A stretch of 64,000 nt of DNA from Thermoplasma acidophilum DSM 1728 (GTDB lineage Archaea > Thermoplasmatota > Thermoplasmata > Thermoplasmatales > Thermoplasmataceae): NCBI RefSeq assembly GCF_000195915.1, contig NC_002578.1, forward strand, positions 1,173,644 through 1,237,643, read 5' to 3'. Of the stretch, positions 25,504 through 35,162 are shown in pieces; position 1 is the stretch's first letter, and each line of letters opens with the position of its first letter. A program made the translations under genes and the position numbers. A model generated the notes under the pieces. That model worked only from the letters and a program-made list of their open reading frames with translations, had not been told where the DNA came from and ran no database searches.

Positions 25504-25941
25504 ATGGCACGAATGCACACAAGAAAGAGAGGAAGATCAGGTTCAAAAAAAGTTTACGGCGTTCAACCTTCATGGATACAGTACAGCAAAGATGAGGTTA
25601 TAAACACCATAGTTAATCTTAAGAAATCTGGTGTACCTCCCTCCGTCATAGGTATAAAACTCAGGGATCAGTATGGAATACCCACCGTCAAGGCGGTTCT
25701 CGGAATGAAACTCGGAAAGGTTCTCTCAGAGAAAGGGCTTAAGGATGACGTGCCAGAAGATCTCGGGAACCTCATAAAGAGATACAACAACGTTGCCAAA
25801 CACGTGGAATTGAATCCCAAGGATCAAGCCAACAAGAGGGGAAGGGATCTCATCATGGCCAAAATGCTCCGCCTCGTGAAATATTACAAGAGGACAGGAG
25901 TACTTGACGAGAAATGGAACCTAAGTAAGGTTCTGAGATGA
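25504..25941 (+). CDS. rpsO: Ribosomal protein S15 (uS15, archaeal type)
   Basis: A 145-residue archaeal/eukaryal-type S15: [19 protein letters not shown], then [20 protein letters not shown] and [25 protein letters not shown] box about 27 nt upstream suggests a leaderless start. The last 4 nt overlap the following RecJ-like gene, a gene pair common in euryarchaea. Confidence 0.97.
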
Positions 25942-27277
25942 TCGAAGATCTCATACCAAAGGATCTTTATGATAAATACGCTGAGGCCAAGGATCTGATC
26001 CTTGGATCAGATTTTTTAAGGGTAATAGTGCATTATGATGGTGACGGCACAAGTTCCGCGATAATACTCACCAACATGCTGAAGCGCCTCAACAAGAGGT
26101 TTCATCTTAGCTATATCAAGGAACTAAACGAAACTGGATTCCGATCACTTATAACAGATGACACAACTATAGTCGCCGACGCCGGATCCGATCAGCTGAG
26201 ATTTGTACCGGAGAAGAAGAACATAATCGTTCTGGATCACCATTTTTATACAAAGGCCGACTGGAAGGGCATGAATATAAATGCCAGGGATTATGGAATA
26301 GACGGCACACATGAAGCATGCGGTTCCACCATGTCGTACATGATGGCGCTGGTTATGGACGAGAAGAATTCTGATCTCTTTCCCTTCTTCATGAGCGGAT
26401 TGATAGCCGATAAGCAGGATCTGGGCGGCATATCAGGGATGAACCTGAAACTCGTCGATTCCTACGGGGAAAAATTCAGAAAGGATCACGCCTCAATCTT
26501 GAAGGTACGACACTCAAAGATTCACTTACATACTCCACCGATCCATTCTTCAAGGATATAACAGGATTCCCGGACAGGGCAGAATCTTTCCTCAGAACTG
26601 TTGGAATAGACCCCGATAAAAAACAGCAGGATCTTTCGGAAGACGAAAAGCGGCTTCTTGCAAACGCCCTCGGACTGAAGTTGCTTGAGCAGAAGGCCGG
26701 TTTCGAGGCTCTATCATACATTGAAGCTGATCTTTACTATTTCGATTTCGGTTATTCATCCAAGATGCTTTCTTCGATCATTGATGGAAATGGAAAGATG
26801 GGCAAGAATTCGGTTCCTGTGGCATATTTTCTTGGATTTGAGAACTTAAAGCAGGAGATGGAGACAAACTGGAAGCTATTCAAGACCAAGATAATCGATT
26901 ATACCTACAGATCATTGGGAGAGATGTTTTCCACTCCCCATATATCTTATTTTTATGCGCCAGAATCAGAGATGGCTGGTGCCATATCGGGCATTCTCAT
27001 GTTATATCTGGCAGATCAGACAAAACCGGTCATAGGCTTCAGCGTCGGTAAGGACGAGACAAAGGTGTCTTCACGCGGAACGAGGAAGCTTGTCAGCAGA
27101 GGCCTTAACCTTTCACTGGTTATGCGTGATGCCAGCGCAGCTGTAGGCGGATCAGGTGGTGGGCATGACATCGCTGCTGGAGCCGTGATTCCAAAGGGGA
27201 AGGAGATACAGTTCCTGGAAACCGCAGAGAAGATCATTGAAACGCAGATAGGCAAGGTGCAAGCGAAAGCAAGGTAG
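25938..27277 (+). pseudogene. RecJ-like DHH phosphoesterase, interrupted by an apparent -1 frameshift
   Basis: Single-strand nuclease or phosphoesterase of the archaeal RecJ/GAN-type family. Frame 1 (25938-about 26474) carries the DHH core: VHYDGDGTSSAIIL, VADAGSDQ, IVLDHHFY and GTHEACGSTMSY. It then runs into stop-bound junk ending at 26561. The homologous sequence continues in the -1 frame as RLNLEGTTLKDSLTYSTDPF through to the DHHA1 motif GGSGGGHDIAAGAVIP, ending at 27277. Reading the 5-A run at 26470-26474 as six A restores one frame of about 447 codons. Possibilities are a sequence error, a real mutation, or slippage (GAA AAA TTC). Adjacent to rpsO as usual. The protein may well be functional. 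Confidence 0.85.
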
Positions 27278-28146: not shown

Positions 28147-28920
28147 TCACTTCTTCGCTTTTTTCCATTTTGGTTGGTTCCTGCCCCTGTTGGAACCGAG
28201 TACCATGATCACCATGAAGACCAGTACCACGGCAAATACGTAGTATATCCAGTTATAGTTTGGAGGAGTTCCATAGTAGAATTTTGTGCTTATTGAATTT
28301 GCGTTTCCGTCTATCTTTATATTGGCATTGTTAATGGTTACGGTCAGAGTGTGCGATCCATGACCGAGGTTTGGATTGATATAGGTTGCATTGACCTCGA
28401 CGGTAGAACCAGGCATTATCTTGGGTACTGTTTTCTGCAAAACCGGTGTTCCGTCTACGTAAAATGTGGCTGTAACGTCATACACAGGGTATGATGTCGG
28501 GTTGCTGAGAAAAACATGGAAGTATATTGGAGAAATTACCGAGACCGTTATCATCTCCGAATAGTTATACTGGACACCATCAAAATAGGCGGAAGTTACT
28601 ATGTAGAGATAGAGCGTTTGCGGTGTTTCAGGGGCGGTTATAGTTGCGGTATAGTTATATTTGCTTGCATAGTACTGGTGTATCGTATTTGTAGGGCTCA
28701 ATCCCGTGAGATTGGTACCTGCAATGTATATGGTGAAATTGTAATTGCTGAAACCGGCACTGCTTGTTATGGTTATGTTAAACTGCTGCCCTGTGCCCAC
28801 ATCTGATGGGTAACTTACCTGGGATGAATAAAAAGGAGCCGTCTGTGCATTCGCAATTGGGCCCGCCAGTAAGATCGCCGCCAATGCGAACAGAATGGGT
28901 ATGGTAAAGTATTTGTTCAT
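28147..28920 (-). CDS. Exported CARDB/Ig-like surface protein overlapping STT3 gene
   Basis: A 257-residue protein with an N-terminal signal peptide (FTIPILFALAAILLAGPIANA). Two beta-sandwich regions follow: one around residues 30-125, and a CARDB-like one with SNPTSYPVYDVTATFYVDG and MPGSTVEVNATYINPNLGHG. A C-terminal transmembrane helix (YYVFAVVLVFMVIMVL) with a basic tail (NRGRNQPKWKKAKK) ends it. Its ATG overlaps the stop of the giant STT3 gene by 4 nt, so it is translated from the same mRNA. It may be an accessory subunit or a glycoprotein substrate of STT3; this is inference from linkage. Confidence 0.85.
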   Translation of the reverse strand: MNKYFTIPILFALAAILLAGPIANAQTAPFYSSQVSYPSDVGTGQQFNITITSSAGFSNYNFTIYIAGTNLTGLSPTNTIHQYYASKYNYTATITAPETPQTLYLYIVTSAYFDGVQYNYSEMITVSVISPIYFHVFLSNPTSYPVYDVTATFYVDGTPVLQKTVPKIMPGSTVEVNATYINPNLGHGSHTLTVTINNANIKIDGNANSISTKFYYGTPPNYNWIYYVFAVVLVFMVIMVLGSNRGRNQPKWKKAKK

Positions 28921-31900
28921 CTCCTGCGCCTCCCTCTGTATGCCGATACACTTAATCCGACCACGATGGTGACTGCTATCAGTATCAGGCCTATGATCAG
29001 GCTCAGATATGGATTCGCTGTGTAATCATTTATAACGCCATTTCCACTTGCTACCACGCTTGCCTTGGATAGCTGCGGATACGCACCAGTCAGTGTGATA
29101 CTGTAAGACGATCCGTATCCTGTAACGTTCACGCTGACGGACACCTGTGGAGCAGGGGTGGTGGTTGTGGGTATCAGGGTTATGTTAACGACCTTAGAAG
29201 AGAACGCCGGGACGAACACTGCCGATGGATAGCTGACATTGTAGTCCAGAAGCGATATGTTGCCAATTTCCGATTTCGATATGATCAGATTCACGGTTAT
29301 ATTTGAATTTCCGGTATTGTTTATTATTACAGGAAGCTCAAGATAAGTACCGTTTATAGAGCTGATTCCTGCTGTTGCAGTGAATGACGTAACCGCCGGG
29401 AAGTTTGCGTACAGATACTTTGTTGTATTGCCACCATTATAACTTATATTGACGGGAATCGCAACCTGACCTGAGTTCATAGTCTTCAACGGCGTTATGT
29501 TGACGGATATGTTTTCCTCCTGGCCAGGCATGAGTTCGATCTTTCCATTGGTCATGTCCTTTCCAGCAAATATCATGAGGAAACTTGTGGAATTTCCAGA
29601 TAGCAAAGTTATGTTCACCTCCGAGTTTCCGGTGTTCATTATAGTAAAGTTATAGGTAAGCGGATAGTATTTCACGGTACCATTATCAACACTGTATTCG
29701 AACGTTTCAACCTTAGATATCTGTGTCATTGAAAATGAATATACCTTTTCCTTCTGAAGGTTCAGATTCACATACGAAAGTGCATTCACGTATATCGTCG
29801 ATGAGCTAGCAAACGTTATGCTCACGCTTTCAGTTGGAAAGATTTCGGTGCTTGTTATCTGCGAAGAGAACGTGTAATTCCCTATCGGCAGGTAAACATA
29901 TGAAGCAGAGCTGTTGACTATAATGTATGCATTGCCAGACGTTATGGTAACATTCAGGTATTTCTGAACTCCATCCACGGCGGTCATCATGTAGACCCTG
30001 TAAGTGCCGGTCATGCTGGCATTGTATTCCTTATAAGTGGCAAACGGAGCGATTGATATGTATCCAAAATATCCATTGGAATGAGTCCTGCTCAAGGCGT
30101 ACACAGTGTAATCTCTAATTGGAACTATGAATTTAGCCACGCCTGTACCGTTTGCATTTGAAACTTTATAGACTGATCCGTTATAATAAAGATATACTGT
30201 GGAATACGGGGTACCTGTGTTCACCTTAAGATCCGCAAATGCCTGTGTGACCGTAAGATTCAGGGTTTCGTTGAGATTTGAACTGAGCGTCACATTGGCA
30301 GCGCCGTTTGAATAGAAGGAACCGGTGGAATTTGAGAAGCTACCGTTGAAGGATATCTCATACCGTCCTGCCGGCAACACATAGTGCGCCAGCCCCGAGA
30401 GCATGTACCCATTTCCCTCTATTCTGTATATCCCGGATATGCCCATGTTATTGGTGAGATTGAGCTGGTATCCGTGCTCTGTTGATATGTTTGTTATTTC
30501 CATGTTTCTGGATATATTGATGGCTGAGAGTGAGTAGTTTGATCCGCTATAGTAATACAACTCGTATGTCCCAACAGGGATGACACCAAATTTCAACATT
30601 GAACCGCTGGCTGTGAAGAGGTACACATTAGAAATAGAGCTAGAAACGTTGGCATATATTCCCACAGGGAGTGATATCGACTTCGAGGCAAGTATCGGGT
30701 AATTTCCATACTTAATGATGTTCGTGGAGTTTTGGAAAACCACGCCATATACTCCCGGAAGTACAGAACCAACTATGATCCCATTCGACATGGAAAGCTT
30801 GTAATCGTATGTGCCCTGAAGAACCGCATAACCACTGAAAACCGCTAGACGAGATGAATTATAGAGCGTTATCGTCACGGGCACATTCATGGGAGTTAAG
30901 CCTATCGTCATTGCGGATGATATATTGGTCAAAGTATAATTATAAAAGTCTGGTGAGATTATTTCAATCTTCGGGCTTCCTATGTTTGGAGCATATACTA
31001 TGTCAGTATAACCGGAAGGATTGATCGGGACAGCCTCAACAGGAATACCATACGAATATAGCATTATATAACCGTCCTTTACTGAATAGTTGCTGCTGTA
31101 CGATGAACTTATCCCTGCATTATAGAGTACAAATCCAGACATGGTTGAATTCACCAGATGCATCTGATATGAAACGCTCTTCGTCAATGGCAATTTGAGG
31201 ATGGAAGAGTAACTTCTTCCTGCTATTGTACTAGCTGAATATATTGTGTAATAGCCTGATGGCAGGCTCAGGCTGAACTGGGAACTGCCGCTGTATGTAT
31301 AGTAAATAAATGAGCTTCCTGAAACTATGGAATAATAGCCAGAGCTTACCGAGATATTTGTTATATTGGACTCCAGTGAAACCGTTGCCGCTGGAACGCC
31401 TGATATATTAATATCAGTATTGGAAGTCAGAGTATAGGTTTTGAGGAACGCATATCCCTGGCCCACGCCATATACTGTATAGGTGCCTGCAGGCACTATT
31501 ACGCTAAAAACACCTCCCGTGGTATTTACAGACGCTGTCACATTGCCATAATTCCCTTCAGATAGGAACTTTATCATGGATATGTTAGATGCTGTGCCTG
31601 AAACTCTTACTGCTTTATAAACGGGTAAAGAGACATTGACGAAGGAATTCCAGCCAGGCAGATACTCGTCAATGCTATCCGTGGTTGCGTTTGATGATCT
31701 AGCGGATATGGTATAGTTTCCAGATGGTAAATAGATCAAATAATGCCCATTTTTATAAGAGGTATTGCTATAAGCGGTGCCGTTAACATATATCGAGAAG
31801 CCGCTCAGATTAACCTGACCAAGTGACAATGCTAGATTGATTGTGTTCATTGGTACGTAGGCATTGTAAACGTAAGAACCACCTATGGAAGTGTTGGCCG

Positions 31901-34900
31901 TGAGAATGTTTCTATAATAATGGCCATTTATTATAGCCGATAAAGAGTAATCATATGGAGGTAAGCTTGCAAAGTCATAGTAACCATTAACCACATTTGT
32001 GCTTACCGTGTAATTGTATGTGGAATTATAAAGTATAACAGTTCCGCTATTGACCTGAACTGTGGAAGTGGTGTTGTACGATGTTCTGTATTTATATCCA
32101 AGATTACCGCTTATACTTGTATTCTTGATAACAAAATTGTGACTTAAATAATAATCCGGCAGACCAGTAGTGAGATTAAACGAAGTAGATATGTGCTCTG
32201 CCTGAGCCTGTGAAATGTCAACTTTCCAGTAAGATATGACATTCGAGCCTATCAGGGTAAGTGGATCTATTTCGCCTGTACTTATCACCACGGTATCATT
32301 ACCCGGTAAACCTATCAGATTGAAGTAACCGGATGAGTTGGTTAGAACCTGCTGGTGCGGTATTCCATACTGGTCAAAAATGGTGACGTAAACACCACCA
32401 ACGCCGTTACCAGATTCTGTAGTAACCCTTCCGCTTATGTATGCGCCGGGATAATAGGCCACTATGGGATCTGCACCGCTGTATATTTCAGATAATGGAG
32501 GAAGAAGCTGGGCCTTTCCCTTTCCCTCAGACGTCAGCGTATATGCCTCCTGTATAGGGACTATCTTCCATGCGCTTGGATGCGCAGTAGTGTTGTTATA
32601 CGGATTGTATGGAACGCCGAGGTAAACGAGCTCAAAATTGCTCATATTCCAGGCAGGCATTATTTCATACTGTCCAACACCATACGAGATACCCGGAATT
32701 CCGTTTGTCTGACCCACTGCAGAAGGCGGATATCCTACAAGGAATCTGTATATCGATGTGTTGTAAAATGCCGGTGTGTATGTGATATTGAATCCAACAG
32801 GGGTAACGTCCGTTGGGAGCTGATTAAGGGGATATGTTCCCTGATCTGTGGATGCGTAGATCTGGTAATAAGTGTAAGGAACTATCTCGCCATCATAGGT
32901 ATACGTGGCCTGATCTGTAAGATAAGCTGGTGCGTAGAATATGCCAGGATTGTCTCCAGAAAATGGGAACAGATTGTGATCTATCTGTATGTACTGTATG
33001 GAATAACCCGTAACATCTTCCAGCGCAGTGTATAGGCTATTGAGCGTACTGAGACTGAAAGAACTTGCAAGGTAACCCCTCAGAAATCCATAGTAGATGT
33101 TGTCTGCTGTAGAGGAATTTATAAAATTACCGTAGATCGTTGTGTTTGAAAGAACAGTTGAGGTGAACGATGCCGGATCCGTATAGGCGCGATATATAGT
33201 GCTGGCAGCCTGAGGCCCTAGATACTGGGTCAGAGTGCTATTAATAGGAACAAATGTATGGTAGTTAACCTCATAACCCTTTATCAATCTGGCTATCATC
33301 ACACCGAGTATCTGGCTCTGGTTTCCCGCAAGCAGGATCTGACCTGCAGGAACATAACCCTGCTGGAAGTCATCGGCAACTGTTGGGTGCTGACCTTCGA
33401 GCACCTCCTGAAAACCGTAGTCCCACCAGTCAACATATGCTGGCCGCTCATCTATTGGCACGTTAGTGTTCTGTGTTGCCAGCCAGGCAAAAGATTGCGC
33501 TATGGGCTGAGATGAATTGGCTATGTAAAAACCTGATGAACCGAAATACTCGGCATTGCTCGAGTTGTTGGCCCTAAGGAATGCAGGAAGCTCGTGGTAT
33601 ATCTGTGCGTTCACAGTGGAAGCGCTGTTCTCTGGAATGGCGGCATTAACCATTCCTATACCAGACGGGATAACAAGGACCAGGACAAGTATAACCGCAA
33701 AGCTTGCATGAACCCAGTTGATATTTCCTTTGAGGGTTTTCTTGAGAGTAGCGCTGCCAAGGTTTCTCTTTCTGACCTCTGTCAGCTTTGCCATATCAAT
33801 GAAGTATATCAACACAGCTCCGCCAAGAATACCGTATGCGGGGGCCGCAGTTATGTTGAACCTTGCGGCTTCGAAGCTCATATATATCGAAACTATAGAG
33901 AAGACGAGAATAAACATCAGGGTTTCGCTTCTCTCTTTTACGTATTTGTATAAAACGTATACAATTCCGCTCATCCCAAGCACGAACTGCGCAACACCGA
34001 AGCTACTTATATACTCGCCGAGAGGTAGCGGTGCAGCCTCCGCAATAGTGGTGTATACTCTGGTCTTTATGAAGTAGCCCTCTCCTGAAATGAGGGTATG
34101 CATGGTAGATGGCTCAAGCTTCAGCAGCACAAAGAAGCCAGCCAGGGAGACCACAATCGTCAGCGGGACCGTTATTATCCATGGCTTTCTCCCTATTATG
34201 TTTATTAGAAGCAGGAAAGCAATACCCAGAACTGCCATTTCGGCTTCTGGTGCGAACCAGCCTGGGAGAAGGCCAGATCCATAATAGTAATAGGCACCCA
34301 TTAGGAAACCAAGTAACATAGACAGTGTGGTTAGGTATGTTAAATAGCCAGTGGGTCTTCTCGTTAGAAGGTTAATTACCGCCTGTACAACCACGTATAT
34401 TAGCACAATCACCTGTATGTAGGCGTATCCCTGCCATGACAGCATCAGACCACCAAGGGATGCGCCCGCAAGAAGAGCATATATCGTGGCCTTTCTATTC
34501 CTTGAATAATAAGAAAGGATGGATGGAATATAGGATTTTACATTAGCTAGCCTGCTGATAAACAGGTCTTTCTTTGCATTCTTCAACGCCATCTCGAAGA
34601 AGTATATGGTCAGAAAGGCAAATAGAAGTTCAGGAGTGTGCATTCTTCCGTCCGTCAGAATGCCCGCAGATAGATTCCCGGGCATGAGTGCATACAGGAA
34701 TGCTGCCAGTATACCCGCCTTCTTGCCGAATGCCTCCTTTGCCATCAGGTAAACTGGGATTATCAGTAGGGCCCCGAATACCGCATCAAATTCTGCAAAT
34801 GCGTAGTATGCAGCCTTGTACACACCGAATATTGGGGAGAGTATAGTCGCCACGAACGCAATCATCCAGTGGAAAAATGGCGGTCTTGGGTTACCGGAGC

Positions 34901-35162
34901 CAACTGGATAATTAAGGAACAGCTCATGCAGGAGCTGAGTGTGATATGTCAATATGTATTGTATTATATAATAATTGAAATACGGATCACTGCCACCCGA
35001 GTTATTAAGAAACGGGTATGCAAAAGCCTGCGACCAGGAGAAGAAGTTAGCCATGAAGAGATAAAAGACAAAGATAATTCCCAGTATCACCTCTGTCTCA
35101 TACCTCTTGAAAATCGCTGTAAGGTCAAATTTGTTCTCGTTTCTTTCCACAGTTTCAAACAT
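28917..35162 (-). CDS. aglB: Giant STT3/AglB oligosaccharyltransferase with about 1,170-residue exported repeat tail
   Basis: Catalytic subunit of N-glycosylation, transferring lipid-linked glycan to Asn in N-X-S/T. Residues 1-505 are multi-spanning membrane segments with GGSDPYFNYY (Asp59) and the EL5 motif TIAE (372-375). The catalytic-pocket motif WWDYG is at 579-583. Typical archaeal AglB ends near 850-970 residues; this protein continues to 2081. From about 905 a carboxypeptidase-regulatory-like domain begins (ISGRVTTESGNGVGGVYVTI). Many beta-sandwich units follow with recurring LPxGxYT phrases (LPSGNYTIS, VPAGTYTVY, LPSGYYTIY, LPAGRYEIS, LPIGNYTFS). A final transmembrane helix and RGRRRR tail end it. 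The tail holds roughly forty sequons by eye. A TATA box near 35187-35196 supports the ATG at 35162. Confidence 0.93.
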   Translation of the reverse strand: MFETVERNENKFDLTAIFKRYETEVILGIIFVFYLFMANFFSWSQAFAYPFLNNSGGSDPYFNYYIIQYILTYHTQLLHELFLNYPVGSGNPRPPFFHWMIAFVATILSPIFGVYKAAYYAFAEFDAVFGALLIIPVYLMAKEAFGKKAGILAAFLYALMPGNLSAGILTDGRMHTPELLFAFLTIYFFEMALKNAKKDLFISRLANVKSYIPSILSYYSRNRKATIYALLAGASLGGLMLSWQGYAYIQVIVLIYVVVQAVINLLTRRPTGYLTYLTTLSMLLGFLMGAYYYYGSGLLPGWFAPEAEMAVLGIAFLLLINIIGRKPWIITVPLTIVVSLAGFFVLLKLEPSTMHTLISGEGYFIKTRVYTTIAEAAPLPLGEYISSFGVAQFVLGMSGIVYVLYKYVKERSETLMFILVFSIVSIYMSFEAARFNITAAPAYGILGGAVLIYFIDMAKLTEVRKRNLGSATLKKTLKGNINWVHASFAVILVLVLVIPSGIGMVNAAIPENSASTVNAQIYHELPAFLRANNSSNAEYFGSSGFYIANSSQPIAQSFAWLATQNTNVPIDERPAYVDWWDYGFQEVLEGQHPTVADDFQQGYVPAGQILLAGNQSQILGVMIARLIKGYEVNYHTFVPINSTLTQYLGPQAASTIYRAYTDPASFTSTVLSNTTIYGNFINSSTADNIYYGFLRGYLASSFSLSTLNSLYTALEDVTGYSIQYIQIDHNLFPFSGDNPGIFYAPAYLTDQATYTYDGEIVPYTYYQIYASTDQGTYPLNQLPTDVTPVGFNITYTPAFYNTSIYRFLVGYPPSAVGQTNGIPGISYGVGQYEIMPAWNMSNFELVYLGVPYNPYNNTTAHPSAWKIVPIQEAYTLTSEGKGKAQLLPPLSEIYSGADPIVAYYPGAYISGRVTTESGNGVGGVYVTIFDQYGIPHQQVLTNSSGYFNLIGLPGNDTVVISTGEIDPLTLIGSNVISYWKVDISQAQAEHISTSFNLTTGLPDYYLSHNFVIKNTSISGNLGYKYRTSYNTTSTVQVNSGTVILYNSTYNYTVSTNVVNGYYDFASLPPYDYSLSAIINGHYYRNILTANTSIGGSYVYNAYVPMNTINLALSLGQVNLSGFSIYVNGTAYSNTSYKNGHYLIYLPSGNYTISARSSNATTDSIDEYLPGWNSFVNVSLPVYKAVRVSGTASNISMIKFLSEGNYGNVTASVNTTGGVFSVIVPAGTYTVYGVGQGYAFLKTYTLTSNTDINISGVPAATVSLESNITNISVSSGYYSIVSGSSFIYYTYSGSSQFSLSLPSGYYTIYSASTIAGRSYSSILKLPLTKSVSYQMHLVNSTMSGFVLYNAGISSSYSSNYSVKDGYIMLYSYGIPVEAVPINPSGYTDIVYAPNIGSPKIEIISPDFYNYTLTNISSAMTIGLTPMNVPVTITLYNSSRLAVFSGYAVLQGTYDYKLSMSNGIIVGSVLPGVYGVVFQNSTNIIKYGNYPILASKSISLPVGIYANVSSSISNVYLFTASGSMLKFGVIPVGTYELYYYSGSNYSLSAINISRNMEITNISTEHGYQLNLTNNMGISGIYRIEGNGYMLSGLAHYVLPAGRYEISFNGSFSNSTGSFYSNGAANVTLSSNLNETLNLTVTQAFADLKVNTGTPYSTVYLYYNGSVYKVSNANGTGVAKFIVPIRDYTVYALSRTHSNGYFGYISIAPFATYKEYNASMTGTYRVYMMTAVDGVQKYLNVTITSGNAYIIVNSSASYVYLPIGNYTFSSQITSTEIFPTESVSITFASSSTIYVNALSYVNLNLQKEKVYSFSMTQISKVETFEYSVDNGTVKYYPLTYNFTIMNTGNSEVNITLLSGNSTSFLMIFAGKDMTNGKIELMPGQEENISVNITPLKTMNSGQVAIPVNISYNGGNTTKYLYANFPAVTSFTATAGISSINGTYLELPVIINNTGNSNITVNLIISKSEIGNISLLDYNVSYPSAVFVPAFSSKVVNITLIPTTTTPAPQVSVSVNVTGYGSSYSITLTGAYPQLSKASVVASGNGVINDYTANPYLSLIIGLILIAVTIVVGLSVSAYRGRRRR

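Follow-up and report, generated by a model that had tools for sequence, protein, structure and literature searches.

A giant AglB/STT3 protein with an anchored external arm in the Thermoplasmata: an oligosaccharyltransferase with a possible scaffold function

Archaeal oligosaccharyltransferases (OSTs) are regarded as single enzymes with some 600 to 1,000 residues. Among the described systems that bear on the locus presented here, AglB-Long of Archaeoglobus fulgidus (AF_0380, PDB 3waj) has a multi-span membrane body, a first motif of the SGGSD type, and the motifs TIAE and WWDYG, and it carries out catalysis on one chain. On the eukaryotic side, the multipass translocon contains NOMO, a protein built as a chain of beads (PMC11169918), and the OST subunit OST1 has been reported in eukaryotes and in TACK and Asgard archaea (PMC11417166).

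In this work a window of 64,000 nucleotides from the thermoacidophilic archaeon Thermoplasma acidophilum DSM 1728 was analysed (NC_002578.1, positions 1,173,644 to 1,237,643), which is part of a single contig of 1,564,906 bases. This organism has been reported to make N-glycoproteins (Vinogradov 2012, as cited in PMC12448462), and a search of its genome revealed only one STT3. The encoded protein shares with AglB-Long the body and the motifs listed above and would likewise carry out catalysis on one chain; however, it has 2,081 residues versus 868 (PMC3703281), and AglB-Long has neither the bead-chain arm nor the second membrane anchor. An earlier note on this DNA had already pointed out that the protein is much larger than known AglB, and this size difference stands. 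No open-access paper on a giant AglB or on this particular gene was found.

Anatomy of the giant protein and its companion gene

The features of the locus are the following, with the basis of each assignment in brackets:

28917-35162, minus strand: giant AglB/STT3, 2,081 residues in one frame from an ATG start (open reading frame list, profile matches, relatives)
33618-35162, minus strand: membrane body, residues 1-515, multi-span GT-C fold (profile match to AfAglB 3waj, E 1.6e-39, and hydrophobic segments)
34968-35000, minus strand: first DxD motif, SGGSDPYFNYY, with D59 (motif in sequence and alignment)
34638-34652, minus strand: second DxD position, residues 171-175, reading DGRMH instead of the ADHD of most other families of the class (alignment only)
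34038-34049, minus strand: TIAE motif, residues 372-375 (motif in sequence and alignment)
32523-33617, minus strand: external globular part of the enzyme, residues 516-880 (profile and alignment; blocks DxxLFPFSG..GIFYAPAxL conserved)
33414-33428, minus strand: WWDYG motif, residues 579-583 (alignment and codon pattern)
29592-32465, minus strand: external arm of about twelve transthyretin-like or carboxypeptidase-regulatory-like beta-sandwich units, residues 900-1857 (PF13620 at 909-964, repeat model, AlphaFold)
29043-29591, minus strand: two CARDB/Ig-like domains, residues 1858-2040 (sequence matches and AlphaFold model)
28923-29012, minus strand: second membrane anchor, a hydrophobic helix, residues 2051-2080 (hydrophobic segments and AlphaFold model)
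28147-28920, minus strand: companion gene, 257 residues, with an ATGA overlap with the giant gene (open reading frame and conserved adjacency)

By sequence profile, the membrane body is an AglB/STT3 protein (GT66). PF02516 matches it with 43.8 bits, above its cut-off of 24.5, and the archaeal STT3 profile TIGR04154 matches residues 28-625 (E 2e-54) with 185 bits, which is below its curated cut-off of 450. The match to AfAglB (3waj) has an E value of 2e-12 from the single sequence and of 1.6e-39 from a profile, and the latter stops near residue 619. The first DxD, TIAE and WWDYG motifs are all present, in agreement with the earlier note, which had read DPYFNYY, TIAE and WWDYG as the landmarks of a normal enzyme. 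The second DxD position also departs from ADHD in several other orders (GLFD, FGNY, FANY), in which TIAE and WWDYG are kept. The region where the DK motif is expected (residues 728-749; nucleotides 32916-32981, minus strand) contains the conserved block DxxLFPFSG..GIFYAPAxL, and the signature lysine is not obvious in it.

In AglB-Long the chain ends after the globular domain (at about 850-1,000 residues, with no second anchor); here the arm and the anchor extend it to residue 2081. About twelve arm units span residues 901-1857, and ten of them score positive with the repeat model in this protein; the earlier note had counted at least nine units. The LPxGxYT phrases that it described recur as seven strict copies of the LPxGxY type, and the second membrane anchor that it proposed corresponds to the helix at residues 2051-2080. 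The structure prediction that it recommended for residues 900-2081 yielded beta-sandwich units, with a mean pLDDT of 86 and a pTM of 0.50, indicating that the units are modelled well and that their relative placement is not.

The overlapping gene downstream (28147-28920) had been missed by that note. The layout of its product includes a signal helix, two beta-sandwich domains, the second of which is a CARDB domain, one membrane helix and a basic end, PKWKKAKK. Across the class this companion is an exported protein of approx. 240-290 residues; it lies downstream of the giant gene in 66 of 69 loci, with a 4-base overlap in 46, and PKW is found within the last 35 residues in 66 of 67 companions. 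Its fold matches are generic Ig pairs, which gave no support to an identification as OST48 or TRAP. In the families with a short AglB no clear companion was found. The other neighbours, i.e., S15, a RecJ-like gene, Pcc1, prefoldin and GTP cyclohydrolase, revealed no functional link to the giant gene. The RecJ-like DHH/DHHA1 gene (25938-27277, plus strand) is divided in T. acidophilum into two open reading frames in different frames, of 207 and 198 residues, and its counterparts in two close Thermoplasma relatives (L121 and L122) are each read in a single frame of about 449 codons; this split is a frameshift or a sequence error.

Distribution and integrity of the fusion

The giant frame is intact in four other Thermoplasma genomes, with 62-84% identity, which excludes an assembly artefact as the source of the fusion; the intact frames in these genomes and across the class likewise rule out an artefact of the reading frame. 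Enzyme and tail on one chain, the central claim of the earlier note, were found here and across the whole of the class Thermoplasmata. The comparison of length and domains that it had suggested for the Thermoplasmatales gave a match to the query in 109 of the 117 genomes of the order, and nearly all the complete genes encode 2,030-2,130 residues. At the level of the class, in a set that includes many metagenome assemblies, STT3 was detected in 188 of 192 good genomes; the frames listed are mostly of 2,050-2,420 residues, the complete giant genes nearly all of 2,030-2,400, and the length of the tail is nearly constant (1,160-1,391 residues). Since an alignment of 28 tails contained no stretch conserved enough for a genome-wide profile scan, the scan profile was built from residues 715-965 instead. 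In the phylum, a tail profile matches 192 of 194 genomes, some of these matches being CARDB parts of other proteins, as is the case for those in families f49 and f57, which were rejected as giant OSTs. Outside the class the length of AglB is graded, from about 1,130 residues in f47, through 1,160-1,180 in f37 and f60, to 1,390 in f48; proteins of 2,350-2,740 residues with a C-terminal helix are present in f38, f39, f43, f50 and f58, which are also outside the class.

A tail encoded as a separate gene in close relatives, which according to the earlier note would speak against its proposal, did not turn up; the only exceptions are a frameshifted metagenome contig and a few genes broken by frameshifts or contig ends. 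The apparent split in E-plasma (L031/L138) was judged to be a frameshift; there is an overlap of 38 bases between its two frames, and the end of the first one has the look of out-of-frame sequence. Those in G034, G081, G085 and G110 correspond to contig ends. In Acidiplasma and its genus (L038-L040; G041/L158) the proteins have 1,425-1,442 residues, with about 640 residues missing from the middle of the arm, and the anchor and the companion are kept, which implies that much of the arm is dispensable there.

Additional copies were also observed. A Cuniculiplasma genome (G058) has two giant genes (L045 and L046), one of them of 1,589 residues and with a different neighbour, and in several genomes of family f15 (e.g., G125, G175, G182 and G218) two WWDYG codon sites are located on different contigs, suggesting a second STT3 gene.

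Sequons and loss of the catalytic motifs

The tail (residues 900-2081) contains 57 N-X-S/T sequons, a larger number than the roughly forty given in the earlier note. Shuffling of the residues gives 24.1 +/- 4.1, and none of 2,000 shuffles reached 57; the enrichment over composition is 2.4-fold. As a background, approx. 264 kb of the T. acidophilum genome were used (the window and ten 20-kb stretches); with expected counts that assume independent residues and proteins sorted by a crude hydropathy rule, the observed/expected ratio is 1.00 for soluble proteins and 2.09 (about 2.1-fold) for simple surface proteins, so that the enrichment of the tail is ordinary. The density of sequons looks like a trait of the exported proteome of the host and not of the fusion. 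Across the class the tails carry from 7 to 80 sequons at near-constant length, and in several members with equally long arms the sequons are few or not enriched; in Ferroplasma the whole protein contains up to 102. Among the Thermoplasma tails, which are 49% identical, the asparagines of sequons are kept in 77% of the cases versus 44% for other asparagines (Fisher p 0.0009). This difference suggests that in this genus the tail is probably glycosylated, as is usual for its exported proteins.

The giant architecture is also present in gut and peat methanogens, and is thus not to be seen as an adaptation to life as a wall-less acidophile. One of these groups is family f11, taken as Methanomethylophilaceae, in which the body, the arm and the anchor are kept and the catalytic motifs are lost. 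In 28 aligned f11 genes, whose products are 20-27% identical to the body of the T. acidophilum protein (L247 and L250 were left out as misread or incomplete), neither the glutamate of TIAE nor the WWDYG motif is left in any, and three retain the first aspartate. The WWDYG codon pattern was detected in only 1 of 36 f11 genomes, the one from genus g84, versus 111 of 115 other genomes of the class; G254 is likewise devoid of the catalytic motifs. In a tree of the body, all the f11 losses are in one clade with the active g84 branching beside it, and one further loss is in f32, which on this topology is independent of that in f11. No second STT3 was detected in f11.

These genes nevertheless have intact frames. 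The dN/dS values, obtained by the Nei-Gojobori method from usable pairs that share species and in some cases have a dS near 1, are 0.08-0.16 in the body, the globular part and the arm, and about 0.13 for body and arm alike. To judge from the sequences, the f11 reading frame is under purifying selection, arm and anchor included. The companion adjoins the giant gene in most of the f11 loci checked, and the sequon enrichment of the tail goes down to 1.27. We infer that the f11 members are catalytically inactive; in host-associated Methanomassiliicoccales few glycosyltransferases have been reported (PMC9723798). The retention of the arm and the membrane part without the catalytic residues indicates that the arm probably serves a purpose of its own instead of being a sugar-coated shield.

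Possible functions and comparison with known systems

The reading that we prefer, to which we give an even chance, is that an OST has been fused with a conserved extracytoplasmic scaffold, that the function of this scaffold can be separated from catalysis, and that a small single-span partner belongs to the system. A standard archaeal AglB and an ancient, class-conserved external arm with its own membrane anchor would make up a two-function membrane protein, and the companion would be the partner, co-translated with it and presumably binding to it. The arm would be a scaffold rather than a substrate, and would hold the enzyme and the partner, probably together with exported chains or the export machinery, at the outer face of the membrane; its action could be in export or in membrane-protein handling. 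A possible role of the tail in guiding acceptor proteins, as the earlier note also considered, would be closer to this proposal. The body, the partner and the arm are all retained, and a scaffold that joins the first two to something outside fits this pattern best. The shortened arm of Acidiplasma counts against it, and so do the generic nature of the domains on which the similarity to NOMO rests and the absence of NOMO from the top 50 fold matches. A more specific version is tentative, namely that the protein is first of all a scaffold for export or membrane-protein assembly, similar to a NOMO tether, and that it was kept with its partner as a pseudo-oligosaccharyltransferase in those gut methanogens in which N-glycosylation was abandoned.

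Persistence in the absence of catalysis is compatible as well with a surface protein of purely structural role, in which the two-anchored arm would be a spacer or pillar and the enzyme only its historical carrier. The constant length, the two membrane anchors, and the conservation in lineages without catalytic motifs and without a visible S-layer or wall are in favour of this idea; however, we consider it unlikely, since it leaves the eroded membrane body unneeded, although in f11 this multi-span part is conserved as strongly as the arm, and the companion is retained too. That the tail serves the enzyme as a dense substrate of its own and forms a glycan shield around a wall-less acidophile seems quite improbable to us. 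The excess of tail sequons over the 24 expected, their preferential conservation within Thermoplasma, the high count of Ferroplasma and the unidentified disordered surface protein layer seen in Thermoplasmatales (PMC12448462) would agree with such a coat; nevertheless, ordinary surface proteins are equally enriched, equally long arms can be poor in sequons, the architecture occurs in neutral gut and peat methanogens and outlives the motifs, and an OST would not be expected to be abundant enough to cover the cell. The arm tracks neither sequons nor catalysis, as it should if it served only as substrate or coat, and such a role explains the class as a whole poorly. From the earlier note's suggestion of a self-glycosylated coat, the glycosylation of the tail in Thermoplasma probably holds, but neither this nor the surface coat is supported as its main function. 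Finally, the finished chain could be cleaved to release an anchored surface protein from an enzyme of about 900 residues; the low model confidence between enzyme and arm (residues 882-900) could point to such processing, but it is very improbable, because the residues of this junction (YYxGA...YGIPH) are among the best conserved of the protein and, outside damaged or broken contigs, no lineage encodes the halves apart.

A whole class uses an OST more than twice the usual size with a fixed companion gene, and in one family or more it seems to have been retained although catalysis was lost. The latter sets the scaffold apart from the enzyme, and the old question of whether archaeal OSTs are coupled to export in the way known from eukaryotes becomes one that truncation of the gene can address. 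A further suggestion is that the Methanomethylophilaceae, which are important gut methanogens, are without N-glycosylation of the STT3 type.

With respect to known systems, NOMO2 (PDB 9c7v; eukaryotic BOS complex of the multipass translocon) resembles the arm in its chain of beta-sandwiches outside the membrane (about twelve, transthyretin-like or Ig-like) and in its single membrane helix at the C-terminus, and it is the best PDB sequence match of the arm units (E 9.4e-10; best single stretch, i-Evalue 1.8e-4). In contrast with the giant protein, NOMO2 is a separate protein without an enzyme, and the likeness is possibly generic to the domain family. The matches are partial and limited to domains, without similarity over the whole length or the same fold arrangement, and NOMO is not among the top 50 fold matches; since the fold search does not single it out, the likeness is one of analogy and not of membership. 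None of the searches carried out here detected homology of the giant protein or its companion to OST1, OST3/6 or TRAP subunits; the ribophorin I (OST1) profile PF04597 had no match in 16 genomes, the control genomes being silent as well. The accessory subunits OST1, OST3/6 and TRAP of eukaryotes, Asgard and TACK archaea nevertheless place external beta domains with membrane helices beside STT3, as the giant protein does, and the parallel is an analogy of working only.
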